A stretch of DNA of 50,436 nt from a virus: the IMG/VR virus record IMGVR_UViG_3300047548_000076, positions 1 to 50,436 of that record. The stretch is one strand, 5' to 3'. The first letter of the stretch is position 1, and every line of letters begins with the position of its first letter. The translations under genes were made by a program, and so were the position numbers. The notes below the pieces were generated by a model, which was not told the origin of the DNA, ran no database searches, and saw nothing but the letters and a program-made list of their open reading frames with translations. Positions 3,763 through 48,795 of this stretch are shown in pieces.

Positions 3763-3954
3763 ATGGAACAATGGAAAGACTTTGATGATTTTGAATTGGC
3801 TTGTATTTGTGCAGACTATGGTTATGAAGACCGACTAGAGATAAGCGATATCCTCCCTGTTAGGCTTGCAAACCGAGCCGAGATTGAGCAGTTGCTAACC
3901 GAAGTAGAACATGATATTGCATTCCCTGTTGACATTAATTGCGAATTAGTGTAA
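3763..3954 (+). CDS. Small acidic hypothetical protein
   Basis: A 63-residue acidic protein of unknown function (begins MEQWKDFDDFELACICADYG). ATG 3763 is chosen because it follows a GGGAG motif at 3750-3754 and lies 26 nt after the -10 box; an upstream TTG would sit on the leader. It is the first gene after the promoter, and its stop codon overlaps the -10 box of the next promoter. Confidence 0.65.
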   Translation: MEQWKDFDDFELACICADYGYEDRLEISDILPVRLANRAEIEQLLTEVEHDIAFPVDINCELV

Positions 3955-3957
3955 AAT
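3929..3957 (+). promoter_or_regulatory. Sigma70-like promoter before the VWA/metallopeptidase gene
   Basis: TTGACA (3929-3934), 17-bp spacer, TAAAAT (3952-3957). The -10 box contains the stop codon of the preceding small gene, and the next ATG is 30 nt downstream with GAGGAA before it. Confidence 0.65.
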
Positions 3958-3986
3958 AGTCGTATATTGAGATTGAGGAATATATA

Positions 3987-6188
3987 ATGGAAATGCGAGC
4001 AAACGATCTATCTGCAAAACTGCTGGCTACTGAAAACCTTTCAGTTATTCGTGCCAATGCAAAGACTGCATCATTTGACATCAAGTCACGTGTCCTAACT
4101 CTACCGATGTGGAAAGAGATGACTCCCGAAGTGGAGGATATGCTTATCGGTCACGAAGTTGGTCACGCACTCTATACTGGCGAACAGTACATCGAACCTC
4201 TCCGTGAGAATCCTAAACTCATGGGCTACATGAACATCGTTGAAGATGTCCGTATTGAGAAACTTATCAAGCGTAAGTATCCTGGACTCCGCAAACGCAT
4301 GAACGAAGGTTACAAGCAACTGAACGATCGTGACTTCTTTGGTGTAAAATCTCTCCAAAGTTTTGATCATCTTCTGTTGATTGACCGTATCAATCTATAC
4401 TTCAAAGTTGGCTTCCAATGTGGTGTTAAGTTTACACCCGAGGAGAAGGTATTTGTCAATCGTGCTGAACGCACTGAAACTGTTGAAGACGTAATTCAAC
4501 TTGCTCAGGACATCTATGCTTTCGCCAAGGAACAAGCCGAGCAGAAGAAGCAACAACGTCTTGCACGTGGCGAAGATCCAGAAGATGAAGATGAAGAAGA
4601 TCCAATTTATGGTGACTATGACATCGACATGGATGGTGACTGGGATCAAGAAGAATCTGATGACGAGTTGGATCCTATGTCTAAGAACGGTAAGAATCGT
4701 GAAAACGATGAACAAGCTGATCCAGAAGACGACATCGAAGCAAAAACCGACCGAGTCTTCCAAGACAAGTTGTCTGACCTTGCTGACAATAACACCGAGT
4801 ATCACTACTGGAAATTCGATACCATTTATTTCGAAGATCCTGTTGTTGGCTACAAAACTATTCTCCGTGACACCAAGTCGCCTGAACAGTGGCAAGCTGA
4901 AGACGAAGTCCAGAAGTATGACTACAATACTCGCTACATGTCCGATGAAGAGCGTAAGGAATACTACGCTAAGATGACTTCAGAATTTGACACGTTCAAA
5001 AATGAGTCTCTTCGCACTGTGAACTATCTCGTCAAAGAATTCGAGATGAAGAAATCTGCCACTGCCTACAAGCGTACACAAACTTCTAAAATCGGTTCTT
5101 TGGATATGCGTAAAATCTATGCCTATCAACTGCAAGATGATTTGTTCAAGCGTGTGACTACTCTGCCACAAGGTAAGAATCACGGCATGATTATGCTTGT
5201 TGACTGGTCTGGTTCTATGGATTCTGTTTTGCGTGACACTCTTAAGCAGGTTGTTAACCTTGCTATGTTCTGCAATCGTGTTCAGATTCCATATCGTGTG
5301 TTTGCATTCACCACTGCTTACGAACGCAACCGTAACGATGTAACAGATACTGAACGACATGAGCGTTATATTCGTGAACGTGACTTCATGATGAAGAAAC
5401 AAGATCAGACTGGTAACATTCTTTCCAATGCTCGTGGCTTCCATATGCTTGAATTGTTCAGCAACCGAATGACTACCAGCGAATTCAACTCTATGGCTCG
5501 TCGTGTCCTCGACTATCGTTTCCACTGGAATGCTGGTATGGGCACTAGTGGTACTCCGTTGAACGAATCATTGGTGTGGGTTTACAATACTATTGGTGAT
5601 TACATCAAGAAGAACAATATCGAGAAGATGACTTTCATTACTCTTACTGATGGTGAAGGTGGTTCTCTACATAATGTCACTCGTGGTGGTACAACTCTAG
5701 ATGAATACACCAGCAAGATTATTGATGGTCAGTATAAGCGTGTCAAGATGCGTCACTTCATCAAAGATGAACAAACCCAAAAGACTTACGAAATCACTAG
5801 TGATTCCACTAAGCAAACTGGTACGATCATCCAGATGATTAAGGATCGTTACAATGTTACCACTGTTGGTTTCTACATCTGTGCAAACCACAAGGGTGCT
5901 TTGCGTTCTGCTATCCACGCTAACATCCCTGAATTTAATGGCGATGCTTACACTCTGATTGACTCTTGGAGAAAAGACTTCCGTGAGAATGCATTCGCCA
6001 GTGTCAAGAATACTGGTCGTGATGAGTTGTTTATCATCCCTCAGAACTCTACCAAGATCAATGAGGGTGAGTTGGAAGTTAAGGCTGATGCTAAGGCTGC
6101 AAGTATTGCTCGCAACTTTAGCAAATACCTGAACACTAAGAAGACTTCTCGTGTTCTTCTGAACCGATTTGTGGCTCTCGTAGCCTAA
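3987..6188 (+). CDS. CobT/VWA-like protein with N-terminal zinc-peptidase motif
   Basis: A 733-residue two-part protein. Near the N-terminus is a zincin motif GHEVGH (H56, E57, H60) followed by NIVEDVRIE, where the last Glu could be a third zinc ligand. An acidic linker runs from about 195 to 250 (EDPEDEDEEDP and similar). The C-terminal half is a von Willebrand A domain with the MIDAS motif DWSGS at 406-410 and TDGEGG from 554. This build matches CobT-type partners of MoxR/CobS AAA+ ATPases, and just such an ATPase follows at 6314. Aquatic T4-like phages commonly carry the ATPase under the name CobS. A cobalamin role is doubtful; a chaperone-like or protein-processing role is more plausible. 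Confidence 0.85.
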   Translation: MEMRANDLSAKLLATENLSVIRANAKTASFDIKSRVLTLPMWKEMTPEVEDMLIGHEVGHALYTGEQYIEPLRENPKLMGYMNIVEDVRIEKLIKRKYPGLRKRMNEGYKQLNDRDFFGVKSLQSFDHLLLIDRINLYFKVGFQCGVKFTPEEKVFVNRAERTETVEDVIQLAQDIYAFAKEQAEQKKQQRLARGEDPEDEDEEDPIYGDYDIDMDGDWDQEESDDELDPMSKNGKNRENDEQADPEDDIEAKTDRVFQDKLSDLADNNTEYHYWKFDTIYFEDPVVGYKTILRDTKSPEQWQAEDEVQKYDYNTRYMSDEERKEYYAKMTSEFDTFKNESLRTVNYLVKEFEMKKSATAYKRTQTSKIGSLDMRKIYAYQLQDDLFKRVTTLPQGKNHGMIMLVDWSGSMDSVLRDTLKQVVNLAMFCNRVQIPYRVFAFTTAYERNRNDVTDTERHERYIRERDFMMKKQDQTGNILSNARGFHMLELFSNRMTTSEFNSMARRVLDYRFHWNAGMGTSGTPLNESLVWVYNTIGDYIKKNNIEKMTFITLTDGEGGSLHNVTRGGTTLDEYTSKIIDGQYKRVKMRHFIKDEQTQKTYEITSDSTKQTGTIIQMIKDRYNVTTVGFYICANHKGALRSAIHANIPEFNGDAYTLIDSWRKDFRENAFASVKNTGRDELFIIPQNSTKINEGELEVKADAKAASIARNFSKYLNTKKTSRVLLNRFVALVA

Positions 6189-6198
6189 AACTAAGGAA

Positions 6199-6232
6199 CT
6201 ACCCCTGCAAACCCTTATGGATACAGGGGTAG
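6199..6232 (+). terminator. Hairpin after the VWA gene
   Basis: CTACCCCTG (6199-6207) pairs perfectly with CAGGGGTAG (6224-6232) around a 16-nt loop. Little T-run follows (ATTTCTGC). It closes the transcript before the next promoter. Bases 6210-6228 are the exact reverse complement of 3671-3689. Confidence 0.55.
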
Positions 6233-6249
6233 ATTTCTGCAAAAAGTGC

Positions 6250-6278
6250 TTGCCTTTTATTGCGATTTAGGGCATAAT
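6250..6278 (+). promoter_or_regulatory. Sigma70-like promoter before the AAA+ ATPase
   Basis: TTGCCT (6250-6255), 17-bp spacer, CATAAT (6273-6278). The upstream word AAAAAGTGCTTGCCTTTTAT is nearly identical to that at 3700-3719. Confidence 0.75.
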
Positions 6279-6313
6279 TATGTTATTGTGATTGATTATG
6301 AATGGAGTGAATG

Positions 6314-7474
6314 ATGGCAAAAGTTGATACCCAGTTCCGTGCAGAGTTTGAATCCAAACTGTACGAAATGTTCCCTGATGTTGCAACCGAGAAGACGGTA
6401 TCCCGTCCGCAACTGATGGAAGTTATGTCTGCCCTAAAGACAGAGAAATTCCCCCTTTGGATGATGAAAGAAAAAGTCGGTCGTGGTCTGTACGCCATTG
6501 ATGGTGGCAAACCTGCACCTGTTGTTGGCAATACTGCAGTGAAGGAAGAACCTGTGCACTCTTATCGTGTTGATTACACTAATATGGAATCCCTCGTACC
6601 GAAGAAGGATCCTAACTACGTTGCATTCGGCAACCACACCGACTTGGAAAACATTATCAAGTCTGGTATCTTTTACCCTGCATACATCACTGGTCCAACT
6701 GGTAACGGTAAGTCCACGATGGTCGAGCAGATTTGTGCCAAGCACAAGAAGCCACTCATCCGTGTTAACCTTAACATGATGACTGACGAAGAACAACTGA
6801 TTGGCTCCAAGACGCTAGAGAATGGCAACGTGGAGATTGTCGAAGGTCCAGTCCTTATCGCTATGCGCACTGGCACCACTCTACTACTTGACGAAATTGA
6901 TGCTGGCTCTGCTAACACTCTGCTTTGCCTGCAACCGATTCTCGAAGGTAAGCCATACTACTTCAAACTCAAGAATGAGATGATCATTCCTGCAGCTGGC
7001 TTCAACCTTATCGCCACTGCAAACACTAAGGGTAAGGGTTCAGACGATGGTCGTTACATCGGTACTAACATCCTTAACGAAGCATTCTTGGAGCGTTTCG
7101 CTGTAACCTTTGAGCAGGAATACCCATCTGCTAAGGTAGAGATTAAGATTGTGAAGAATCTGATGGATTCATATCAGTGTGCTGATGATGAATTTGCAGA
7201 GAACCTTGTAAAGTGGGCTGATTCAATCCGTCGTACTTTCGAGGATGGTGGTGTGGATGAAACTATTACGACTCGTCGTATGACCCACATTGTACGTGCC
7301 TTTGCGATTTTCAAGAATCGTACTAAGGCAGTGGAACTTTGCTGCAATCGTTTCGACTCCGCAACTAAGGATGCATTCCTGAAGTTGTACGACATGGTTG
7401 CAAACCCTCAACCTGAACCTGTAGCGACTCCCGAAGTTGTTGCGAATCCAGAGAGCGAAGAAGTTCCCTTCTAA
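6314..7474 (+). CDS. MoxR/CobS-type AAA+ ATPase
   Basis: A AAA+ ATPase of about 386 aa. Walker A GPTGNGKST lies at about 127-135 and Walker B LLLDEIDAG at about 190-198, followed by a sensor-1-like ATANT segment. The N-terminal 60 residues form a separate module (WMMKEKVGRGLYAID) that also appears in the protein at 7613. Two ATGs are adjacent (6311, 6314); 6314 is better spaced from GGAG at 6304-6307. MoxR ATPases act with VWA proteins as protein remodelers, so the upstream gene is the likely partner. Phages of this type often have it annotated cobS, but cobaltochelatase activity is not supported by context. Confidence 0.9.
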   Translation: MAKVDTQFRAEFESKLYEMFPDVATEKTVSRPQLMEVMSALKTEKFPLWMMKEKVGRGLYAIDGGKPAPVVGNTAVKEEPVHSYRVDYTNMESLVPKKDPNYVAFGNHTDLENIIKSGIFYPAYITGPTGNGKSTMVEQICAKHKKPLIRVNLNMMTDEEQLIGSKTLENGNVEIVEGPVLIAMRTGTTLLLDEIDAGSANTLLCLQPILEGKPYYFKLKNEMIIPAAGFNLIATANTKGKGSDDGRYIGTNILNEAFLERFAVTFEQEYPSAKVEIKIVKNLMDSYQCADDEFAENLVKWADSIRRTFEDGGVDETITTRRMTHIVRAFAIFKNRTKAVELCCNRFDSATKDAFLKLYDMVANPQPEPVATPEVVANPESEEVPF

Positions 7475-7509
7475 GAATGGAGAGAATGGAAATTCTTGGA
7501 GAAAACAAT

Positions 7510-7528
7510 CCCCTACAGGGTGTAGGGG
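7510..7528 (+). terminator. Short hairpin after the AAA+ gene
   Basis: CCCCTACA and TGTAGGGG form a perfect 8-bp stem with a 3-nt loop. The tail is CATTGCAAAA, not T-rich. It occupies the same place (gene end, then hairpin, then promoter) as the hairpins at 3665 and 6199. Confidence 0.5.
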
Positions 7529-7543
7529 CATTGCAAAAAAGTG

Positions 7544-7572
7544 TTGTCTTTAATTTGAAATTAGGGTATAAT
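7544..7572 (+). promoter_or_regulatory. Sigma70-like promoter
   Basis: TTGTCT (7544-7549), 17-bp spacer, TATAAT (7567-7572), preceded by AAAAAAGTG as in sister promoters. The next ATG (7613) follows AAAGGAATATATT. Confidence 0.75.
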
Positions 7573-7612
7573 AATACCTGTGGTAGTTGAAAATTCTTGA
7601 AAGGAATATATT

Positions 7613-8101
7613 ATGTTGAAATTTGCAAACCTGTCCCTCGCCCAAAAGCGTTTCGTCGTTGCAGTGCTCGAGTCTAATCCTCAGTACAAGAAAGATCCTC
7701 AGATTACTCTGAAGGAATGTGCTGCAATCTATTACACTCTCCGTGACCAGCGCACTGGTGCGAAGAATGAGAAGATCGGTTATCCTAACTGGCTCTTCAA
7801 CAAGAACAAGGTTGAGCGTGGTGTTTACCAGCTACCTGTTCCTACCGATGCAGAACTCGCTGCATACACCAAAGAACTTAGCGACAAGCTGACTGCTCCA
7901 GTTGCTAAGGCTAAGGCTAAGGTAGCCAAACTCGCAAAGGCTAAGACTGTTAAGGTTAAGACTCCCAAGGTTGAAGCCGAAGCAGAAGAAGCTGAAATCG
8001 AGTCCACTCGTCTTCAAAAGATCATCGAAGAATCTGAAATGGTTGACGAAGATGTAGAAGACTTCAACCAGATTCTCCGTGAGAATGGTATCGAAGTCTA
8101 A
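7613..8101 (+). CDS. Lys/Ala-rich protein sharing a domain with the AAA+ ATPase
   Basis: A 162-residue protein. Residues 1-80 contain PNWLFNKNKVERGVYQLP, which lines up with PLWMMKEKVGRGLYAI of the neighbouring ATPase, so both probably carry the same small N-terminal module. Residues about 97-125 are a histone-H1-like Lys/Ala tract (KAKAKVAKLAKAKTVKVK), and the last 40 residues are strongly acidic. It has its own promoter and a terminator. A nucleic-acid or protein adaptor role within the ATPase system is inferred, not shown. Confidence 0.7.
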   Translation: MLKFANLSLAQKRFVVAVLESNPQYKKDPQITLKECAAIYYTLRDQRTGAKNEKIGYPNWLFNKNKVERGVYQLPVPTDAELAAYTKELSDKLTAPVAKAKAKVAKLAKAKTVKVKTPKVEAEAEEAEIESTRLQKIIEESEMVDEDVEDFNQILRENGIEV

Positions 8102-8117
8102 TCACTGAGTTTCATGT

Positions 8118-8145
8118 CGCTGGGGATACGCCATCGTCCCCAGCG
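8118..8145 (+). terminator. Rho-independent terminator
   Basis: CGCTGGGGA and TCCCCAGCG form a perfect 9-bp GC-rich stem with a 10-nt loop, followed by ATTCTTTTCATTT. Confidence 0.75.
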
Positions 8146-8181
8146 ATTCTTTTCATTTGATGGTTTTATAATGGAGATAAT

Positions 8182-8442
8182 ATGTCAAAGCAAGCAAAAC
8201 TACTTTCATACCTTTACACAGGTGCAGAAGTGACTGCTCGTCAGATCCAAGGATCGTTTGGTTTGAAGAATCCACATGGTGCTATCCACTCACTCCGTGA
8301 GCAGGGTCATTGCATCTACTCAAACAAAGCAGTCCTAGCTGACGGTACTGAGACTACCAAGTATCGTGTTGGTAAGCCATCACGTCGCATGGTAGCAATT
8401 GCTAACGCAGTTGCTGGCTCACAGCTGTTCACTCGCAGCTAA
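8182..8442 (+). CDS. Small winged-helix/HTH DNA-binding protein
   Basis: An 86-residue basic protein. Residues 15-45 (EVTARQIQGSFGLKNPHGAI) read as a winged helix-turn-helix, a form I recognise from many phage proteins that begin MSKQAK. It probably binds DNA and may be a transcription regulator. It stands alone between two hairpins (8118 and 8449). Confidence 0.65.
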   Translation: MSKQAKLLSYLYTGAEVTARQIQGSFGLKNPHGAIHSLREQGHCIYSNKAVLADGTETTKYRVGKPSRRMVAIANAVAGSQLFTRS

Positions 8443-8448
8443 TCAGCC

Positions 8449-8473
8449 AATGGGCATTCTTGTAGTGCCCATT
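8449..8473 (+). terminator. Hairpin after the HTH gene
   Basis: AATGGGCA and TGCCCATT form an 8-bp perfect stem with a 9-nt loop; only a short T-run follows (CACAGTTTAGTT). Confidence 0.45.
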
Positions 8474-8496
8474 CACAGTTTAGTTGAGGAGAGAAA

Positions 8497-8808
8497 ATGG
8501 CTAAGAAAGAACCTGATGGACGTAAATTTGATGGTGAGAAACTACGATACGATTTGATTCCACCACATGCACAACAAGCAATGGTAGAAGTTCTAACATT
8601 CGGTGCACGAAAGTATGCCCCCGATAATTGGCAACTTGTACCAGAAGCGAAGCGTAGATATTTTGCAGCACTTGAACGCCATGTATGGGCATGGAAGATG
8701 GGTGAGAAAGTAGATCCTGAATCTGGCATTCATCACCTAGCACACGCAATGTGTTGTCTGGCTTTTTTGTATGAGCACGATGTTAATTATTCGAAGGATG
8801 AAAAATAA
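8497..8808 (+). CDS. dATP/dGTP diphosphohydrolase-like protein (DUF5664-type)
   Basis: A 103-residue all-alpha protein resembling the N-terminal dGTP/dATP diphosphohydrolase family of phages. Typical features are GEKLRYDLIPPHA, VLTFGARKYAPDNW, and the helix ALERHVWAWKMGEKVDPESG followed by HHLAHAMCCLAFL. Members are MazG-like NTP pyrophosphohydrolases that shape dNTP pools. ATG 8497 is well placed after GAGGAGAGAAA. Its stop overlaps the next start (TAATG). Substrate specificity cannot be read from sequence. Confidence 0.7.
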   Translation: MAKKEPDGRKFDGEKLRYDLIPPHAQQAMVEVLTFGARKYAPDNWQLVPEAKRRYFAALERHVWAWKMGEKVDPESGIHHLAHAMCCLAFLYEHDVNYSKDEK

Positions 8809-9164
8809 TGGGTTGGTTTGATAAGGTTACATTGGCAGAAAAGAATCGTCGTATTGACGAACTTCAGAAAGACATTGAGAATCTGAAATACGCTAACGAT
8901 GTATACAAGAAGCGTCTTGAAACAGAAATGGCTAATGCTTCATTCGCTATCGACTGGGATGCGATGAATGTGTTTTCAATCGAGCGAGTGTGGGAGGATG
9001 GGCTACCCAAGACTATTCTTGGTTATATTATAGAAGAACCTGTTACTGTATGTGAAGGTGAAACTACAACAAAAGATGTTGTTCGTGAATGGAATCTATA
9101 TTGTTCCGCAGAGAAACACGAAGAACTCGTCAAAGAATTTAAGGAATGGGTGTCATCGAAATGA
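8808..9164 (+). CDS. Hypothetical protein with N-terminal coiled coil
   Basis: A 118-residue protein of unknown function. Residues 8-40 (NRRIDELQKDIENLKYANDV) look like a coiled coil. The rest is mixed and acidic, with LGYIIEEPVTVCEGE. It is coupled at both ends: TAATG with the diphosphohydrolase and ATGA with the membrane protein that follows. Confidence 0.7.
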   Translation: MGWFDKVTLAEKNRRIDELQKDIENLKYANDVYKKRLETEMANASFAIDWDAMNVFSIERVWEDGLPKTILGYIIEEPVTVCEGETTTKDVVREWNLYCSAEKHEELVKEFKEWVSSK

Positions 9165-9337
9165 TTAAGATTCTAATTCTATTCATTGCTTTCTGGGCAT
9201 GTATGACTGGCTCAGTTGGTCTATATCGTCAGATCAAAGGTTATGAGAGTTGGTCTAATGTTACAAATGGTGCGGTTGGATTGCTTATTACTGCAGTTCT
9301 GTTCGCTGTTGTTATTGGTTTAGTTGTTTTAATCTAA
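9161..9337 (+). CDS. Small two-helix membrane protein
   Basis: A 58-residue protein with two hydrophobic helices (LILFIAFWACMTGSVGLY and GLLITAVLFAVVIGLVVLI) separated by a short polar loop. ATG 9161 overlaps the previous stop; an earlier in-frame ATG at 9146 has no usable ribosome site. It directly precedes the prohibitin-like gene and may act with it at the inner membrane. Confidence 0.7.
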   Translation: MIKILILFIAFWACMTGSVGLYRQIKGYESWSNVTNGAVGLLITAVLFAVVIGLVVLI

Positions 9338-27159: not shown

Positions 27160-27481
27160 TCTACCAATTCAAATTATGGAGAGTCGTAGCAACGGCATGG
27201 AAGCAGTAAAGTTGCTCGATCCTCCATTTGATGGTATAATCTATACCTATGGTAAGGTTTCATTGGATGTGGATGAAGAGAATGACAAGGTTAATCTTGC
27301 ATTCGAATATGAGATTATTGACTATGCTGGTAAGGCTATGTCAGACATGAAACCATTTGAAACCTACATAGGTAAGATACTTGAAGAATTGATTCATCAA
27401 GGTATTGAAGAAAATAGTATTACATACACAGGCGGAATTGATGAGAATAGAACAGAAGATTCTAGCGAATCTGATTCATGA
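27146..27481 (+). CDS. Protein at the gp40 position (head vertex assembly chaperone candidate)
   Basis: A 111-residue acidic protein between uvsX and the helicase gene, where T4 has gene 40. Sequence: IQIMESRSNGMEAVKLLDP, DGIIYTYGKVSLDVDEEND, then ILEELIHQGIEENSITYTGG. The gp40 identity rests mostly on position. ATG 27146 lies inside the uvsX end; ATG 27176 is a possible shorter start. The gene overlaps the helicase start by 41 bases. Confidence 0.6.
   Translation: MTKNNLPIQIMESRSNGMEAVKLLDPPFDGIIYTYGKVSLDVDEENDKVNLAFEYEIIDYAGKAMSDMKPFETYIGKILEELIHQGIEENSITYTGGIDENRTEDSSESDS
27212..27240 (+). promoter_or_regulatory. Possible intragenic promoter before the helicase
   Basis: TTGCTC (27212-27217), 17-bp spacer ending GATGG, TATAAT (27235-27240). 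It is the weakest of the intragenic set and 200 nt upstream of the helicase start. Confidence 0.35.
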
Positions 27482-28829
27482 TGAGCATTATTGTCGAAAA
27501 GTTATTCCATTCATCAAGAAAGAATATTTTGCAGACAAGAAAGAATCCGTAGTTGCAGCAGAGATTGTAAAGTTTTTCAACGCATACAACAAGCCAGCAA
27601 CCAAAGAGGTTCTGCAGATTGAAGTTTCTAATCGTAATGATTTGACAGACAAAGAACTGGGTGAAGTTCAATCCTTCATCTCCAGTTTGTCACAAGAACC
27701 AGTTAATGAAGACTGGATGTTACAGAACACTGAGAAGTTCTGTAAAGACCGAGCAGTTTATAACGCAATCCTTAACTCCATCTCTATCATTGATGGTAGA
27801 GATAAACAACACACACAAGATGCTATTCCTTCTATCCTATCTGATGCTCTTGCCGTTTCTTTTGATAGTCACGTTGGTCACGACTACATTGAAGACCACT
27901 TGTCACGATTCGACTTCTACCATCGTGTCGAGGAGAAGATTTCTTTCGACTTGGATATGTTCAACAAAATCACCAAAGGTGGATTGAGCAAGAAAACTCT
28001 GAACATCGCACTGGCTGGTACTGGTGTTGGTAAATCGTTGTTCATGTGTCACGTTGCTGGCTCATGTTTGAATCAGGGTAAAAATGTATTATACATAACT
28101 ATGGAAATGGCAGAAGAGCGAATCGCAGAACGTATTGATGCGAACTTGCTAAACCTGACCATGGACGAGTTGAAGGTAATTGATAAGGATATCTACGAGA
28201 ATCGTATTAGTAAGATTTCTAAGAAGACTCAGGGTAAACTTATCATTAAAGAATATCCAACTGCTGGTGCTCATGCAGGTCACTTCCGTGCCTTGCTTGA
28301 AGAATTGAAGATGAAACGAGAGTTTAAACCAGACATTATCTTCATTGACTATCTCAACATTTGTGCTAGTCAGCGAATGAAACAAGGTGGCTCTGTAAAC
28401 TCTTATACATATGTAAAGGCAATCGCAGAAGAACTTCGTGGTCTTGCCGTTGAGTATAATGTGCCTATCGTATCGGCTACACAAACGACACGTGGTGGTT
28501 ATACCAATAGCGATCCAGGTTTGGAAGATACTTCTGAATCATTCGGTCTTCCAGCGACAGCCGACTTTATGTTTGCACTAGTGAGCAATGAAGAGTTGGA
28601 AGGTTTGAACCAGATTATTGTTAAACAATTAAAGAATCGTTATAACGACCCAAGTTTCTATAAGCGTTTTGTGGTCGGAATTGACAGAGCGAAGATGAAA
28701 CTGTATGATGTTGAAGCATCTGCTCAAGAAGGTTTGACTGATGCTGGGCAAGACGATGAACCAATGTTTGATAAATCAGCATTTGGTCGCAGACAAAGAA
28801 CAGAATCATTCGAAGGATTTAAGTTTTAA
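27441..28829 (+). CDS. 41: gp41 replicative DNA helicase (DnaB family)
   Basis: A 462-residue hexameric helicase (T4: 475). Walker A GTGVGKS is at 193-199, Walker B IIFIDYLN has D303, and VSATQTTRGGYTNSDPGLED is the typical later block. ATG 27441 has GGCGGA upstream; the ORF extends further 5' but without a ribosome site. It pairs with the gp61 primase encoded at 46541. Confidence 0.95.
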   Translation: MRIEQKILANLIHDEHYCRKVIPFIKKEYFADKKESVVAAEIVKFFNAYNKPATKEVLQIEVSNRNDLTDKELGEVQSFISSLSQEPVNEDWMLQNTEKFCKDRAVYNAILNSISIIDGRDKQHTQDAIPSILSDALAVSFDSHVGHDYIEDHLSRFDFYHRVEEKISFDLDMFNKITKGGLSKKTLNIALAGTGVGKSLFMCHVAGSCLNQGKNVLYITMEMAEERIAERIDANLLNLTMDELKVIDKDIYENRISKISKKTQGKLIIKEYPTAGAHAGHFRALLEELKMKREFKPDIIFIDYLNICASQRMKQGGSVNSYTYVKAIAEELRGLAVEYNVPIVSATQTTRGGYTNSDPGLEDTSESFGLPATADFMFALVSNEELEGLNQIIVKQLKNRYNDPSFYKRFVVGIDRAKMKLYDVEASAQEGLTDAGQDDEPMFDKSAFGRRQRTESFEGFKF

Positions 28830-28839
28830 GGAGAAAGAA

Positions 28840-30213
28840 ATGTCTATTGACACTGGAAGAAATGTTATTGTGAAGGTGCTTGACCAAGCAGAGGTTACAC
28901 CTCGTCCAGATTTGGTCGGCACTTGGTTGGATGAGCGTCATTATCATACGCTAGTTGAATACGATATGGATCTATATCTACCACCTAAATGTGCGATGGA
29001 TATGACCAACGACTGCGCAAAAGAATGTAATGGTTGCGATAAAGGTCTTGACGAACATAATATTGTTTTCAAGTTCCGTAAGAACTACTTCTCTGACGAG
29101 ATGGTTAAGTCAGCCTACGAAGGACTTCGTGATGCTGCACAGGAAACTCAGAACCGTGGAACTGCAGCTGGACCACGTGAAGGTAAATTAGGCAATCGTG
29201 AATGGGTTACTTCTTATCAGTGGGATGTTATTGACGCATTCAAAGATAACAAGGCTAACCTAATGGGTGAAGATCCAATCACTGCCATTCAGAAGAAGTA
29301 TGAAGGTGGTCGTGCTGACATTCCTAGCAATCGTGCACAGGTCTGGTCAATTGAGCGTGTTCGTGATGCAGCATTTGACTTTGATAAGTGGGTTGAAGAA
29401 ACTCGTAAACTAGAACCACATGCACAGGCTGACGAAGCAGAGTGGGTTGAAACAGAACTAATCTGTAAGACTACTTACGCTAACTCTGTGTTGTCTGGTA
29501 TCGCTGGTTGGTACGATCGTTATCCACGTATCCCATTTGGTCGTGCAACTTCTTACACTGAACAAAACCCAGAGAAGTTTGCCAAGTCATATCCTTATCT
29601 AAAGCATCTTGCTGAAGCGTTCAAGGAAATGTTACCATGGCGTTATGGTAATCAGATGCGTGCAGCAAGTAAAGTTGATAAGCGTTTCCTAGTACCAGAC
29701 ACTCCATTTTCAACTATTACTGTTAATCGTAACTTTAGAACGGCTGCTCACTATGACCCTGCGAACATGGAAGATGGTTTTGCTAATATCTGTGTGTTTA
29801 GTAACTCTGATAACTATAGGGGTGCTTATTTGGTGTTCCCTGAAATTGGTTATGCTGTAAACATCCGTCCAGGAGATCTACTGTTCGTTAACAACATGGC
29901 AGGTCTACACGGAAACACCGAGTTGATTCTTGACGACCCAAATGCTGAACGTATCTCTATCATTGCGTTCTTCCACGAAGGTATGTTGACACTTGGTTCT
30001 TGGGAGTATGAACAGACTCGTAAGGCATATGTTGAACACTGTAAGAATGATGTGAACCATCCTTACTATCGTCCACGTTTCAATGGTGTGTATCCAGGAA
30101 TGTGGGAAAGCCAAGAATGGTACAACTTCTGTGAAGCAAAACTTGGTCGTGCAGAACTTCTAAAGATGCATCCAGAAGCAGATAAAAACTCATTAGAGGA
30201 GTTCTTCGGATAA
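28840..30213 (+). CDS. TET/JBP-like 2OG-Fe(II) DNA base dioxygenase
   Basis: A 457-residue protein. The C-terminal oxygenase has the TET/JBP pattern: TITVNRNFRTAAHYD gives the iron ligands H304 and D306, IRPGDLLFVNNMAGLHGN gives the distal H357, and ERISIIAFFHEGM gives 2OG-binding R371. JBP proteins share the NRNFRTA-H-D and G-L-FP-----V--RPGD layout. Known members hydroxylate thymine or 5-methylcytosine in DNA. The N-terminal half has Cys pairs (C--EC-GC, residues about 51-66) that may bind zinc. The extreme C-terminus, NSLEEFFG, looks like the polymerase clamp tail. AAGGAGAAAGAA precedes the ATG; it is followed by TAATG coupling. Confidence 0.82.
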   Translation: MSIDTGRNVIVKVLDQAEVTPRPDLVGTWLDERHYHTLVEYDMDLYLPPKCAMDMTNDCAKECNGCDKGLDEHNIVFKFRKNYFSDEMVKSAYEGLRDAAQETQNRGTAAGPREGKLGNREWVTSYQWDVIDAFKDNKANLMGEDPITAIQKKYEGGRADIPSNRAQVWSIERVRDAAFDFDKWVEETRKLEPHAQADEAEWVETELICKTTYANSVLSGIAGWYDRYPRIPFGRATSYTEQNPEKFAKSYPYLKHLAEAFKEMLPWRYGNQMRAASKVDKRFLVPDTPFSTITVNRNFRTAAHYDPANMEDGFANICVFSNSDNYRGAYLVFPEIGYAVNIRPGDLLFVNNMAGLHGNTELILDDPNAERISIIAFFHEGMLTLGSWEYEQTRKAYVEHCKNDVNHPYYRPRFNGVYPGMWESQEWYNFCEAKLGRAELLKMHPEADKNSLEEFFG

Positions 30214-30893
30214 TGTGTGGTGTTGTAGGAGCAATCCTTATTGAACCCTCGAAAGAGGATTTGTTAATGCTTAATCGTGTTTTCCTCGAATCACAAATTC
30301 GAGGGAAGCATGCAACAGGAGTCGCCTATGTTAAAGGAGGTGAGTTGCACATAGATAAGCGACCCGTGCCAGCTGAGGAATTCCCGTTCAACTTCGCAGA
30401 ATATGTGAATGAAGATGGGAACCTCTATCTAATTGGACACTGCCGTTACAGCACTTCTGATTTAGAATACAATCAACCACTTGGTAATAATAAAACAGCA
30501 ATTGTTCATAATGGGGTAATCACTCAGGAACTACCAGAGAACTGGAACAAGATTTACGGTTACGATTGTATCACAAAGAATGACAGTGAGTTAGTTCTGC
30601 ATTCTGACGACCCACTACGAGAGTTTTCTCATATGTCTATGGGTGTTTGCAAACTAACCACTGATAAGAAGTTGCAACTTTATCGCAACGGCAAGCGACC
30701 ATTATACTTGTCTTCCATTCCTAATGGGTGTATAATTACTTCTACATCGGATATTGCCAACCGTGCAAAGGTTGGTGGTGCACCTGTGGAAGTTCTAATG
30801 AATCATTATATTACATTTGATGAGCAACTTGCAATGTTAATCGAAAGAGTCGATATTGCAGATGCCGTGGATTATCAACATGCTATTCGTTAA
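30213..30893 (+). CDS. Class II glutamine amidotransferase (Ntn hydrolase)
   Basis: A 226-residue glutaminase-type domain with N-terminal nucleophile Cys2 (MCGVVGAIL). Other class II motifs: RGKHATGVA, GHCRYST (glutamine-binding Arg), VHNGVI and a NDSE acidic motif. There is no synthetase domain attached, so it must donate ammonia to a partner. In the modification cluster it could amidate a base or a base-linked carboxylate. It overlaps the TET/JBP gene as TAATG. Confidence 0.85.
   Translation: MCGVVGAILIEPSKEDLLMLNRVFLESQIRGKHATGVAYVKGGELHIDKRPVPAEEFPFNFAEYVNEDGNLYLIGHCRYSTSDLEYNQPLGNNKTAIVHNGVITQELPENWNKIYGYDCITKNDSELVLHSDDPLREFSHMSMGVCKLTTDKKLQLYRNGKRPLYLSSIPNGCIITSTSDIANRAKVGGAPVEVLMNHYITFDEQLAMLIERVDIADAVDYQHAIR
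30708..30736 (+). promoter_or_regulatory. Intragenic sigma70-like promoter in the amidotransferase gene
   Basis: TTGTCT (30708-30713), 17-bp spacer ending GGGTG, TATAAT (30731-30736). It would serve the acetyltransferase-like and transferase genes downstream. Confidence 0.5.
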
Positions 30894-31521
30894 TTCAACG
30901 AGAGTTGAAGAGTTAATTAAACAGAGTCCAGCTGGTAAGAACACCAAGTTCTTATCGGCTGCACACTCATTGTGGTATCGCTTTAAGAATTATGAGAAAG
31001 CACCACCAATGGCATTTGAAGATAACGGTGAAATTGTTTGCTTAATTTTTGCTACTTTTAATCGGGATGGATATGCAAATCTCTACGAAATTGTTACTCT
31101 GGAAGGAAAGGAAGGCAAGGGATATGCGTCGAAGTGCTGGGATGCTTGGATCAAGTATGCCTGCGAAGAACGTAAAACTCAACGACTCAAAATCTCCTGC
31201 ACCCCAAGTTCAGTCAGCTGGCACTACAGAAACGGACTCATCTGGTGGGCAGTAGATCCTACTGGTTCACTCCGCTCTGATCAACCACTCTTCCCAACTA
31301 GAGCAGAACAAATTGCTTATCGTGATAATGCGATAGTTAATCCTCAGTCTGCTTTGCCACCATATAAAGCACGTGATCAATTCCGCAAGGAAGGGTTAGA
31401 CAATTACAAGTGGGGTGATAAAAAGAAAGCCAAGACACAAGCAGCAATTGACGCTGTTGGTAAAGCATGGCTTCGTGATGCACTGATGGAACAACCATCA
31501 CTAGAAGAATTCTTAAGATAA
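30880..31521 (+). CDS. GNAT-like acetyltransferase in modification cluster
   Basis: A 213-residue GNAT-like protein. The acetyl-CoA loop reads EGKEGKGYA (75-83), followed by WIKYACEERKTQRLKISC and a WHYRNGLIWW segment. The C-terminal 60 residues are basic and end in PSLEEFLR, a second clamp-tail-like peptide. Starts at 30856 (TTG), 30862 and 30880 are possible; none has a strong ribosome site, and 30880 gives the most family-like N-terminus. GNAT proteins recur in phage thymidine-hypermodification pathways, where some act on base side chains. Confidence 0.75.
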   Translation: MLFVNSTRVEELIKQSPAGKNTKFLSAAHSLWYRFKNYEKAPPMAFEDNGEIVCLIFATFNRDGYANLYEIVTLEGKEGKGYASKCWDAWIKYACEERKTQRLKISCTPSSVSWHYRNGLIWWAVDPTGSLRSDQPLFPTRAEQIAYRDNAIVNPQSALPPYKARDQFRKEGLDNYKWGDKKKAKTQAAIDAVGKAWLRDALMEQPSLEEFLR

Positions 31522-32537
31522 TGGATTATCGTTTACAAGAAAATCGTAGGGAAGCGTTCATTCGCTGGTATGCGTGGTCACTAAAGTATGATGATTGCGA
31601 CCCAGCAGTTTGGGCTACCAACTACTTAAACAAAAGATACGAGCACAATGACGAACAACGTCTATGGCTCTGTTGGTTGTATGGTAATACTTACTATCTT
31701 CCAACTGCATGGGTACTCATGAATGAGTTTCCTGACTTTGAATTGGCTACAGTAGATCGTATGGAACAGTGGAACACAGCTAACTATAAACGACTACGTT
31801 ATCAAACAGATACAAAATGGAACAAGGGTCATCTCCCATCTATGTTCGCATCTTATCAGAAGTTTATCGGAGATAAAACACAACGTGAGGTAATGGAATC
31901 ATATTATGGATACACTGAGGAAGAGAACTTTGATAACTTGTGGCAAAGCGTTAAGTCTGGCTTGCATAAGTTTGGTCGTTACAGTACTTGGTTTTATCTT
32001 CAGCATCTTAAGCATACCGCTGGTATTCGGATCAATCCTACTTCTCTCATGCTGGACGATTTTGATGGCTCTCGCTCTCATCGTAATGGATTACTTTATG
32101 CCCTCGCACAAGAGCACAATGTGGATCGAAAACTCACTGCTGTGGAGTATGCAAACCTTGAGTCACAAGCCTATGAGATTCTATGCGAGACGGAAGCAAG
32201 ATTTCCAGAACTCGCATCGTCTATAGATTATTTCACCATGGAAACTTGCTTGTGTTCATTCAAGAAGATTTTCCGTGAGAAGCATGGTCGTTATCTTGGC
32301 TACTACCTAGATCGTCAAGCAGAAGAAATTATGCAGTGTGAGAAAGATGGTTGGTATGGTATTGATTGGGAAGTTATGTGGCAAGCACGAAACGAAACCA
32401 TTGACCTACGACTAGACCACAAACGTGGTATTGATAAAGATAGATTCGCATCGTTCCTAAACAGTGGTAAACTTGAAGGTTTGGAATGGATGTTTGATGA
32501 TGAGCAACCTGTTTTGATTGGATTGGAGAACTTTTAA
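31521..32537 (+). CDS. Amino acid:DNA transferase-like protein (aGPT pyrophosphorylase family)
   Basis: A 338-residue protein. The block NDEQRLWLCWLYGNTYY, then NEFPDF (to about 73), then RYQTDTKWNKG and MFASYQKFIG, followed by GRYSTWFYLQHLKHTAG and RSHRNGLLYAL, is the recognisable pattern of phage amino acid:DNA transferases (also called alpha-glutamyl/putrescinyl thymine pyrophosphorylases). These replace the pyrophosphate on 5-pyrophosphorylmethyl-pyrimidine in DNA with an amino acid or amine. Identification is from remembered motifs, not a search. It is coupled by TAATG at both ends. Confidence 0.7.
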   Translation: MDYRLQENRREAFIRWYAWSLKYDDCDPAVWATNYLNKRYEHNDEQRLWLCWLYGNTYYLPTAWVLMNEFPDFELATVDRMEQWNTANYKRLRYQTDTKWNKGHLPSMFASYQKFIGDKTQREVMESYYGYTEEENFDNLWQSVKSGLHKFGRYSTWFYLQHLKHTAGIRINPTSLMLDDFDGSRSHRNGLLYALAQEHNVDRKLTAVEYANLESQAYEILCETEARFPELASSIDYFTMETCLCSFKKIFREKHGRYLGYYLDRQAEEIMQCEKDGWYGIDWEVMWQARNETIDLRLDHKRGIDKDRFASFLNSGKLEGLEWMFDDEQPVLIGLENF

Positions 32538-32941
32538 TGAATGATGATTTGACTGTTGGAAGTATTACTTCTGTTGGTAGCGATTATGGGGTTGTTACAA
32601 CTTCTGGTATTGTGCCGATGACTATGACCACTGCTTCGGCTTTGACAATCGCTGCACACGCACCAGTAGAAGATATTATGGACAAGTGGATTATGAATCG
32701 TGTGACCATTGACCATAAAGTGCAAGAACAAGAGTTGATGAAACTCAAAGAAGTTGCTCCAGACTATGCCAATGAGATCAAAGAAAACTTGGCTAAGAAC
32801 GCTGCAAGGGATATGATTAAGAAAATCACCTTCACGAAGAAACACGATAAGGATGCCGATGTGCACCACTTTATTGGTCGTGTGTGGTGTTTCACCGAGC
32901 AAGAACTAAAAGATTTTATCGAGGAAGTAAGAAATGTTTAA
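32537..32941 (+). CDS. Hypothetical protein in modification cluster
   Basis: A 134-residue protein I do not recognise. The first 45 residues are small and hydrophobic (DYGVVTTSGIVPMTMTTASA). The rest is a charged helical region (NEIKENLAKNAARDMIKKI), ending in HHFIGRVWCFTEQELKDFIE. It lies between the transferase and kinase genes and overlaps the kinase by 8 bases, so it is likely part of the same pathway. Confidence 0.7.
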   Translation: MNDDLTVGSITSVGSDYGVVTTSGIVPMTMTTASALTIAAHAPVEDIMDKWIMNRVTIDHKVQEQELMKLKEVAPDYANEIKENLAKNAARDMIKKITFTKKHDKDADVHHFIGRVWCFTEQELKDFIEEVRNV

Positions 32942-33539
32942 AGATAATGTCGGCATCTCAGATAAACTAACCTTTACTATGAAGACCAATCCTATGAAAA
33001 CTAGAAAACTAATCGCAGTTGGTGGAAGTCCAGGAACTGGTAAGACCACTCTTTTCCGTAAGTTTATGGAAGGTAAGAAGTGGATCGAATGCGAACCAGC
33101 AAAACTAATCTCGGCTATGTATTGCGAGGAACTAGACCTATACATCCTAGGTAAGTATCAAGAAGGTGAGACTTTCGCTGGTACGGATCGCCTATCAATG
33201 GCAGTCCAGCCAGAAGTCCATAAGTGGATCCAGACCAATAACTGTAACATTCTCTTCGAAGGCGACCGAATCTTTAATCAGTCTTTCTTGGAATTTGCGA
33301 TGGGTCTACCCGATACCGATCTCCAGATCGTTATGCTAACCGCACCTAAGGACATCCTAGAACAACGCTATAAGGATCGTGGATCAGAGCAGTCCGACCA
33401 ATTCCTAAAAGGTCGGGAAACTAAATATAGCAAAATCCAATCAAATTTTGAGTTGATGCCCTATATTACTGAGTTTGCAAATACTAACTTAGAGGAGCAG
33501 GGAAAGGTGTTGGCGTTTCTGGAGAAGCAATTCCAATGA
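32934..33539 (+). CDS. P-loop kinase, candidate 5-hydroxymethylpyrimidine DNA kinase
   Basis: A 201-residue nucleotide-kinase-like P-loop protein. Walker A GSPGTGKTT lies at about 31-39; LGKYQEGETFAGTDRLSMAV and NILFEGDRIF (Walker-B-like) follow; QRYKDRG may hold a lid arginine. In characterised phage thymidine hypermodification a P-loop DNA kinase phosphorylates the hydroxymethyl base before the transferase acts. Neighbouring genes make that role plausible; a free-nucleotide kinase is the alternative. Confidence 0.7.
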   Translation: MFKDNVGISDKLTFTMKTNPMKTRKLIAVGGSPGTGKTTLFRKFMEGKKWIECEPAKLISAMYCEELDLYILGKYQEGETFAGTDRLSMAVQPEVHKWIQTNNCNILFEGDRIFNQSFLEFAMGLPDTDLQIVMLTAPKDILEQRYKDRGSEQSDQFLKGRETKYSKIQSNFELMPYITEFANTNLEEQGKVLAFLEKQFQ

Positions 33540-33560: not shown

Positions 33561-34277
33561 ATGAATTACCTACAGACTTTAGACTTCGACTTCATGGAAA
33601 TGTTGAAATTTGAGGATCTGCCTTTTAGGGCTAAATTCATCCCATCCAAAATTTGGGGCGACTTAGATCGCTACAAGAATGACGCCACTGGCTTGAGGAA
33701 TTACTTCAAGAAGTGGCGTTTTCGCATTAGATTCCATAAAGAAAAACGACCAACCACTAAGATCTCTGTGGGTGGTGGCTACTATACAGATGAGGCTAAA
33801 TTAGAACTAGACATCTACACTAGCCCAGATACAACCTACAACCGATATAAGTTTAAGGATAGCGTCTGGAATCGCTTTAAGTTTAGACTGATTCAAGTAG
33901 CGATGCATGAGATCATCCACTGTCGTCAATACTATGGCAAACACGAAGACTTCACTAAGGGTAAGGTTTACTGGAAGAAGTCTGGTATCAAACGAATTGA
34001 CGATAACAGAGAATACCACGCTGGTAAAGACGAGATCGAAGCATACGCTCACTGTGTATACCTAGACTTTAGAATGCGTAAACCAAATGTACCTATCGCT
34101 ACATTGATTCGAAACGCTAAACAATACCATGTTTCTAAGAACCTTTCTGGCATCCAGAAGGTATTCCAGACAGATAAGCACAACGAAGTTATCCCACTGC
34201 TATTGAGAAAGATTCTCACTTGGGAACGTAAGTATCAACGACAGGAAAGACTTGTGAAGGCATCTCGTAAATCCTAA
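33561..34277 (+). CDS. SprT-like zinc metalloprotease
   Basis: A 238-residue protein with HEIIH at 116-120 (HEIIHCRQYYGKHEDF) and a downstream EYHAGKDEIEAYAH that may supply a third ligand. The layout resembles SprT/WLM-type metallopeptidases, which in hosts cleave DNA-protein crosslinks; the phage role is unknown. The ribosome site is weak. It is followed at once by a late-promoter word. Confidence 0.7.
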   Translation: MNYLQTLDFDFMEMLKFEDLPFRAKFIPSKIWGDLDRYKNDATGLRNYFKKWRFRIRFHKEKRPTTKISVGGGYYTDEAKLELDIYTSPDTTYNRYKFKDSVWNRFKFRLIQVAMHEIIHCRQYYGKHEDFTKGKVYWKKSGIKRIDDNREYHAGKDEIEAYAHCVYLDFRMRKPNVPIATLIRNAKQYHVSKNLSGIQKVFQTDKHNEVIPLLLRKILTWERKYQRQERLVKASRKS

Positions 34278-47566: not shown

Positions 47567-48109
47567 GTGCATTATAGAAAGATTTGGGAATTGCATACTG
47601 GTAGATCTATCCCTGATGGGTATGAAATACATCATATTGATGGAAATAATCAAAATAATTCCCCAGAAAATTTGGTTTGTGTGACTATTGAAACGCATCT
47701 TCAAATACACAAAGATCAGGGCGACTGGGGTGCGGTTCAAGCAATATTGATGAGAATGTCGTATAGTAAAGAAGAAGTATCTATAGCTGCTGCTCTTTTT
47801 CAAAAGAAACTTATGGAAGAAGGTAGGCACAATTTTCAAAAAATTGACAGGGTTAAGTTATCAAAGAAAATTATAGAACAAAGAATAGCATCTGGTCTTC
47901 CTGCGTTTCTTGGTATACCAAATACTATTGAAAATTCTAGACGAGCAGGTAAAATTGCGGCAGAAAAGAATTCTGGTTTCTTGGATGTAAATTCCAAAAA
48001 TCACGGAAGTAAAGCTGTAAAGGGTACTTATTGGTGGACAAATGATAATGGAGAAAGAATTCGTTCAAATGTTTGTCCAGGTGAAACATGGAAAAGAGGT
48101 ATGAAATGA
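47567..48109 (+). CDS. HNH homing endonuclease
   Basis: A 180-residue HNH endonuclease. The HNH core is YEIHHIDGNNQNNSPENLV with later THLQIHKD. A basic middle and a C-terminal KGTYWWTNDNGERIR suggest DNA-binding modules. GTG 47567 has GGAGA upstream with suitable spacing. It sits between primase and thyX and overlaps thyX as ATGA, so it looks like an insertion between two conserved genes. Confidence 0.88.
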   Translation: MHYRKIWELHTGRSIPDGYEIHHIDGNNQNNSPENLVCVTIETHLQIHKDQGDWGAVQAILMRMSYSKEEVSIAAALFQKKLMEEGRHNFQKIDRVKLSKKIIEQRIASGLPAFLGIPNTIENSRRAGKIAAEKNSGFLDVNSKNHGSKAVKGTYWWTNDNGERIRSNVCPGETWKRGMK

Positions 48110-48795
48110 AAGTGCGATTGATTAGTTATTCTAAACCAACAGAAGAACTCTCTAACGAAGGTATTGAAACTGCGCAAGATCTAATAGCGTTTTGCGCCAG
48201 AGTTAGTAACCCTTCAAATCAATATAATACAGAAACTGCAGATAAACTAATACGATATCTTATCAAACATCAGCATTGGAGTCCTTTGGAACTTACTAGC
48301 GCATGTCTGGAAATTGACACAACACGAGATATTGCTCGTCAGATTCTAAGACACCGTTCTTTCTCATTCCAAGAGTTCAGTCAGCGTTATGCTGACCCAA
48401 CTAAGGATCTCTCATTTGTCCTGCGTGAAGCACGACTACAAGACGAAAAGAATCGTCAAAATAGTATTGAGATGGAACCGACTATTGGCAACGCTATGAT
48501 TGCGGATGAGTGGAAGCAACGACAGCAAGATATTCTACGACTTGTAGAAGACACATACACTTGGGCAGTTAAAAAAGGTATCGCTAAAGAACAAGCACGT
48601 GCTGTGCTTCCAGAAGGATTAACAGTTTCCCGTCTGTATATGAACGGAACACTACGTAGTTGGGTTCACTACTGCGAATTGAGAATGGCGCACGGAACAC
48701 AAAAAGAACACATGGATATTGCTAAAGAGATTGCTAATGTTATATCTGAATGTTTTCCAATGATGGAGGATTTGTGTGATAACCAAACGAATTAA
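48106..48795 (+). CDS. thyX: Flavin-dependent thymidylate synthase ThyX
   Basis: A 229-residue ThyX with the signature RHRSFSFQEFSQR at 82-94 (RHRx7S). Other blocks are WSPLELTSACLEI and the C-terminal RSWVHYCELRMAHGTQ. It makes dTMP using FADH2 and methylene-tetrahydrofolate. ATG 48106 follows AGAGG. It is a source of thymine, which could also feed base modification. Confidence 0.95.
   Translation: MKVRLISYSKPTEELSNEGIETAQDLIAFCARVSNPSNQYNTETADKLIRYLIKHQHWSPLELTSACLEIDTTRDIARQILRHRSFSFQEFSQRYADPTKDLSFVLREARLQDEKNRQNSIEMEPTIGNAMIADEWKQRQQDILRLVEDTYTWAVKKGIAKEQARAVLPEGLTVSRLYMNGTLRSWVHYCELRMAHGTQKEHMDIAKEIANVISECFPMMEDLCDNQTN

Follow-up and report, generated by a model that had tools for sequence, protein, structure and literature searches.

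The DNA described here is a 50,436-base virus record (IMG/VR record IMGVR_UViG_3300047548_000076; "the window" hereafter means this whole stretch), which carries the replication region of a T4-like phage. Between a replicative helicase gene and a run of variable genes lies a six-gene cassette (28840-33539, all on one strand) which encodes, in this order, a TET/JBP-family dioxygenase, a class II glutaminase, a GNAT-fold protein, an amino acid:DNA transferase (ADDT), a small protein and a P-loop kinase. The gene ends overlap or abut, and AAGGAG, a Shine-Dalgarno-like motif, precedes position 28840. With a probability of about three in four, judged from sequence, this cassette constitutes a post-replicative pathway for thymine hypermodification in a T4-like phage. 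A preliminary description had listed five coupled families and one unassigned gene at these positions, and this gene content is borne out: the TET/JBP, glutaminase, ADDT and kinase families pass the curated Pfam cut-offs and the GNAT is recognized by its predicted fold. NCBIfam names none of the core enzymes above its cut-off.

The first gene (28840..30213, plus strand, as are all the genes described below) encodes a TET/JBP-family 2-oxoglutarate/Fe(II) dioxygenase of 457 residues, which matches the Tet_JBP profile PF12851 (E=1.8e-24, 86.3 bits against a cut-off of 34.9) and phrog_24024 (2e-140). The residues already singled out in the preliminary description, that is, H304, D306 and H357 as the HxD...H iron ligands and R371 as the arginine for 2-oxoglutarate, are invariant across 22 homologues, including those of the phages DLP_6, Cr30, C48C1 and S-CBWM1. 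Among solved structures the profile finds human TET2 (E=1.3e-8), and the HxD and His...Arg regions of the two coincide in the alignment. The enzyme is predicted to hydroxylate the 5-methyl group of thymine in DNA. Several phage TET/JBP proteins carry the deposited name "SNF2 DNA repair protein", and this misannotation conceals the family.

The second gene (30213..30893) encodes a stand-alone class II glutaminase with an N-terminal cysteine and without a synthetase domain, which is detected by the GATase_6 profile PF13522 (E=6.6e-9, 36.3 bits against a cut-off of 27) and shows weak N-terminal matches to PurF, AsnB and GlmS models. The class II motifs reported earlier are confirmed, since the nucleophile C2 and the motifs R78, H99-N100-G101 and N123-D124, which include the Asn/Gly oxyanion motif, are invariant in all aligned homologues. 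This protein is a predicted ammonia donor. As PF13522 was too insensitive as a whole-record probe and missed known members, our own glutaminase profile took its place in searches of whole records. The third gene (30880..31521) encodes 213 residues if translation starts, as it probably does, at the ATG at 30880, which is a small correction to the earlier gene call. Its product scores 20.1 bits with Acetyltransf_1 (PF00583), just under the cut-off of 20.7, so it is called here a GNAT-fold protein and not a certified family member. An AlphaFold model built from 27 homologues, in which the mean column identity is 91%, has a predicted local distance difference test score (pLDDT) of 82.5, and its best Foldseek matches in the PDB are GNAT acetyltransferases (E of about 3e-6, probability 1.0, template modelling scores of 0.4-0.6). 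The protein is predicted to N-acylate the installed amine.

ADDT, also called aGPT-Pplase2, is encoded at 31521..32537 and matches PF18724 (E=1.5e-21, 77.6 bits against a cut-off of 26.2) and phrog_3271 (1e-52); PF18724 has matches in none of 14 control genomes, and the protein can be aligned with the homologues of the phages Cr30, Cygsa01, Zemanar and Montesquieu. It is predicted to exchange an activated hydroxymethyl oxygen for an amine or amino acid. The kinase gene (32934..33539) belongs to the Ploopntkinase3 family (PF18751, E=1.2e-8, 35.2 bits against a cut-off of 27), with a conserved Walker A motif GGSPGTGKTT and a conserved FEGDRIFNQSF; in Zemanar its homologue is a neighbour of ADDT, in Cr30 the two are a few kilobases (kb) apart, and it is a predicted 5-hydroxymethyluracil-DNA kinase. 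Thus the two proteins whose placement in unrelated families would have spoken against the preliminary description fall in the expected ones. Between them lies a gene (32537..32941) for a protein of 134 residues with a variable Gly/Ser/Thr-rich N-terminus and a conserved C-terminal half, for which Pfam, PHROGs and NCBIfam searches gave no convincing family match and modelling gave a poor structure (pLDDT 61). A gene of this type was not found in six related loci (L035, L036, L046, L047, L063 and L075).

Matches to ADDT in IMG/VR gave 80 loci, 44 of which span the region from helicase to kinase. Because the loci were picked by ADDT and the spans by helicase and kinase, TET and glutaminase alone are free observations; TET, glutaminase and ADDT are present in the same order in all 44 spans. 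In every cassette gene nonsynonymous differences lie far below the synonymous, and they are least for ADDT and GNAT, with synonymous sites near saturation. Dozens of loci keep this synteny under purifying selection, so the arrangement is not due to chance.

Between glutaminase and ADDT there is a tailoring slot, which is occupied by the 213-residue GNAT in 35 of the 44 spans and by an amidoligase-like gene in nine, never by both and never by neither. The amidoligase identity is above the Pfam cut-off for L002 and L049 and weak or undetected in a second subfamily; profile comparison finds the two subfamilies homologous with a probability of 99.9%. Loci of the amidoligase class also encode a different GNAT, a protein resembling low-molecular-weight phosphatases or a glycosyltransferase with a weak match. 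Moreover, a flavoprotein of the tryptophan halogenase family (L049:10139-11614, PF04820, 7.9e-93) is inserted between ADDT and the small 32537-type gene, a hint of halogenation or another flavin-dependent modification of DNA or a precursor, and a radical SAM enzyme is added in L077 and a second 2-oxoglutarate oxygenase in L034, L074 and L075. A helicase tree requires two or more switches between GNAT and amidoligase, and on it the nearest neighbour of the window besides its near-copy L001 is L002 of the amidoligase class, at a support (93/81) below the starred threshold. The window's TET is 82% identical to that of L063, 74% to that of L049 and 57% to that of L002, from which TET alleles too appear to move separately. 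In nine spans (L013, L018, L021, L031 and others) a protein of about 225 residues without Pfam match, which may be the product of a mobile nuclease gene, is found between GNAT and ADDT.

As to the base that is modified, the preliminary description had left the choice between thymine and 5-methylcytosine (5mC) and had noted a ThyX gene. The latter is indeed present (48088..48795; PF02511, 1.5e-41), and by this flavin-dependent thymidylate synthase the phage, to judge from the sequence, makes ordinary deoxythymidine monophosphate (dTMP). A cytosine C5-methyltransferase (PF00145), the gene that marks TET-linked 5mC systems, has no match in the window itself and none in 11 related records; as a control, the same profile matches in 10 of 14 control genomes. 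The thymidylate synthase/hydroxymethylase fold (PF00303), to which the dUMP hydroxymethylase of the M6/ViI-type route through hydroxymethyl-dUTP (hmdUTP) belongs, is absent in the window's relatives, which this search covered in place of the window record. Three near-full-size relatives of 161.7, 161.9 and 170.6 kb, which resemble the isolates DLP_6, Cr30 and C48C1 in size, possess ThyX and match neither PF00145 nor PF00303. The hmdUTP (nucleotide-pool) route was rejected on this ground, because PF00303 does detect divergent hydroxymethylase-type genes in the ADDT phages Cygsa01 and Montesquieu. With neither PF00145 nor PF00303 found and with ThyX present, oxidation of thymine in DNA is the most economical entry, and thymine in DNA is likely to be the substrate over 5mC; of the two earlier options the evidence leans strongly to the former and goes against the latter.

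The pathway may be drawn as follows. ThyX would provide ordinary dTMP and, after replication, TET/JBP would oxidize some of the thymines in DNA to 5-hydroxymethyluracil, as its family and the genome content suggest. By analogy with characterized thymidine-hypermodifying phages, the P-loop kinase would then phosphorylate the hydroxymethyl group in DNA and ADDT would displace the phosphate with a nitrogen nucleophile. The glutaminase would give ammonia, which would either serve ADDT as the nucleophile and yield 5-aminomethyl-deoxyuridine or turn the carboxylate of a coupled amino acid into an amide; finally, GNAT would acylate the amine. As a leading guess, the product would be a deoxyuridine derivative of the 5-(aminomethyl) type on which GNAT has placed an N-acyl group. 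The glutaminase accompanies GNAT and amidoligase loci alike, which suggests that it works with the core and not with one of the two caps, and 5-aminomethyl-deoxyuridine could be acylated by either GNAT or amidoligase. A further and rather speculative extension is that the conserved core makes 5-aminomethyl-deoxyuridine from glutamine-derived ammonia after TET oxidation, and that interchangeable acylating caps (GNAT with acyl-CoA, or an ATP-dependent amidoligase with a carboxylate) together with extra chemistry including flavin-dependent halogenation produce, in varying combinations, a family of DNA bases not yet described.

Some observations weigh against thymine hypermodification by the whole cassette. 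The window is a 50-kb fragment and the completeness of the relatives is not certified, and TET could act on 5mC if the host or an unrecognized methyltransferase supplies it. Furthermore, the canonical Arg/Gln before GxG is absent from GNAT, and a second GNAT is often present in amidoligase-class clusters, by which a simple functional equivalence of the two classes is not proved. In the Caulobacter phage Cr30 and the mycobacteriophage Zemanar, TET, ADDT and kinase are found with no detectable glutaminase, so ADDT chemistry does not in general require one. This last point, together with the generic nature of PurF/GlmS/AsnB-type domains, would suit a separate small-molecule or cell-surface pathway in which glutaminase and GNAT merely share the operon and the base is made by TET, ADDT and kinase only. 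Such a division is improbable, however, as the glutaminase stands between TET and ADDT in 44 of 44 spans and as the order glutaminase-ADDT-P-loop kinase-GNAT recurs in remote Bacteroidales-associated clusters, whose glutaminases are about 32% identical; these clusters favour a functional link of the glutaminase to the ADDT pathway.

A cytosine route, in which TET would oxidize 5mC in the phage DNA to 5-hydroxymethylcytosine for later activation and decoration, in the manner of the TET-linked cytosine systems found in metaviromes, is likewise improbable. Phage TET enzymes are said to act on 5mC, and the best solved relative of the TET profile is a 5mC dioxygenase, TET2; nevertheless, the lack of PF00145 noted above and the conservation of ThyX speak against this route, as does ADDT, which is known from thymidine pathways. 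The kinase, too, is known from thymidine pathways (PMC6449724). Within thymine hypermodification itself, the glutaminase step admits a variant that deserves some weight, even if the odds are against it, in which ADDT attaches an amino acid, acidic or otherwise, whose carboxylate the glutaminase amidates, so that ammonia is not the nucleophile of ADDT. ADDTs reportedly use free amino acids. In addition, alpha-glutamylthymine has been recorded for SP10-type phages (PMC5977210), and phage DNA is modified by amide ligases of the CmoY type, of which some possess a domain that hydrolyses glutamine (PMC12783734); however, no ATP-dependent synthetase lies beside the glutaminase in the commonest architecture, to which the window belongs.

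The cassette is adjoined upstream by a T4 gp41-like replicative DnaB helicase (27405..28829), which has a homologue annotated as DnaB-like helicase in C48C1 and is context, not a member of the pathway. PHROGs identify gp47/gp46-like SbcD/SbcC, a sliding clamp, a clamp loader and a gp43-type polymerase elsewhere in the window, and a RecA-like protein, a gp61-like primase and NrdA, like the helicase, were read from the sequence. Downstream of the kinase, an open reading frame at 33561-34277 carries HEIIH, a zinc-protease-like HExxH motif, has no Pfam match and varies strongly between relatives.

If thymine hypermodification is correct, a widespread group of T4-like phages would enter amino- or amide-decorated DNA by oxidation of thymine in DNA and not through a hydroxymethylated nucleotide pool. 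A fixed core beside a swappable tailoring slot offers candidates for new DNA bases, DNA-labelling enzymes and phage resistance to restriction, and the swapped capping genes in wild relatives point to a family of unseen bases that likely shield phages from bacterial defences. Virion DNA of DLP6 has been exposed to 18 restriction enzymes (PMC5349666), but the published sentence on the outcome is garbled and is given no weight here. Since the isolated relative Cr30 has TET, the transferase and the kinase, the entry chemistry is open to testing now.

Among known systems, in the phages M6, ViI and phiW-14 the transferase reportedly installs the nucleophile, followed by tailoring, including by acetyltransferases. 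In the route proposed for these phages, a 5-hydroxymethyldeoxyuridine (5hmdU) DNA kinase first phosphorylates 5hmdU in DNA, and substitution follows (PMC6449724). The route proposed for the window resembles theirs in kinase activation of hydroxymethyluracil in DNA, transferase and tailoring. In M6, ViI and phiW-14, however, a hydroxymethylase of the thymidylate synthase fold makes 5hmdU at the nucleotide level, whereas the window has TET/JBP and its relatives lack that fold, so TET would stand in for the hydroxymethylase; the class II glutaminase between TET and transferase is another difference.

Cr30, also T4-like, possesses within 9 kb a TET (43% identity to that of the window), an ADDT (29%) and a related kinase (38%), but differs in a weak match to a TET-associated glycosyltransferase (TAGT), a nearby inositol-1-phosphate synthase, a canonical-looking ThyA and the lack of a detectable glutaminase. 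In this region (L082:10001-18894) TET is annotated as "SNF2 DNA repair protein" and ADDT and the weak TAGT match lie near the synthase, suggesting a sugar- or inositol-linked base in this cultivable phage. In the phage CmoA/CmoX/CmoY carboxymethylcytosine system, an amide side chain is likewise placed on a phage DNA base and some CmoY homologues have a glutamine-hydrolysing domain, but it acts on cytosine with a C5-methyltransferase fold and a carboxy-S-adenosylmethionine (Cx-SAM) handle and is described without TET, kinase or ADDT (PMC12783734).

The Bacteroidales-associated clusters L099 and L101 (about 3900-9200; contigs of Phocaeicola and Prevotella metagenome-assembled genomes) have glutaminase, ADDT, P-loop kinase, GNAT and radical SAM behind ParB-like genes. 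TET was not detected in the genomes carrying them, the Ploopntkinase3 cut-off is passed in L101 only, and their GNAT has no detectable sequence relation to that of the window. Combinatorial tailoring genes have reportedly been seen in viral metagenomes; the coupling of a glutaminase and a swapped tailoring slot was not found described in the literature searched, a search short of the main primary papers.

The core itself has precedents. Zemanar gp1-gp4 form a minimal ParB-TET-ADDT-kinase operon, in which, as in the window's relatives, no PF00303 fold was found and whose ADDT and kinase are only about 25-26% identical to those of the window, and the Rhodococcus phage Tonitrus has ParB, a TET-like JBP, aGPT-Pplase2 and a 5-hydroxymethyluracil DNA kinase (PMC11955845). 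Unlike the window, the operons described for these two phages contain neither GNAT nor a swapped tailoring slot. As the TET-ADDT-kinase core is thus already known from Zemanar and Tonitrus, the cassette would be a variant of thymidine hypermodification and not a separate kind.

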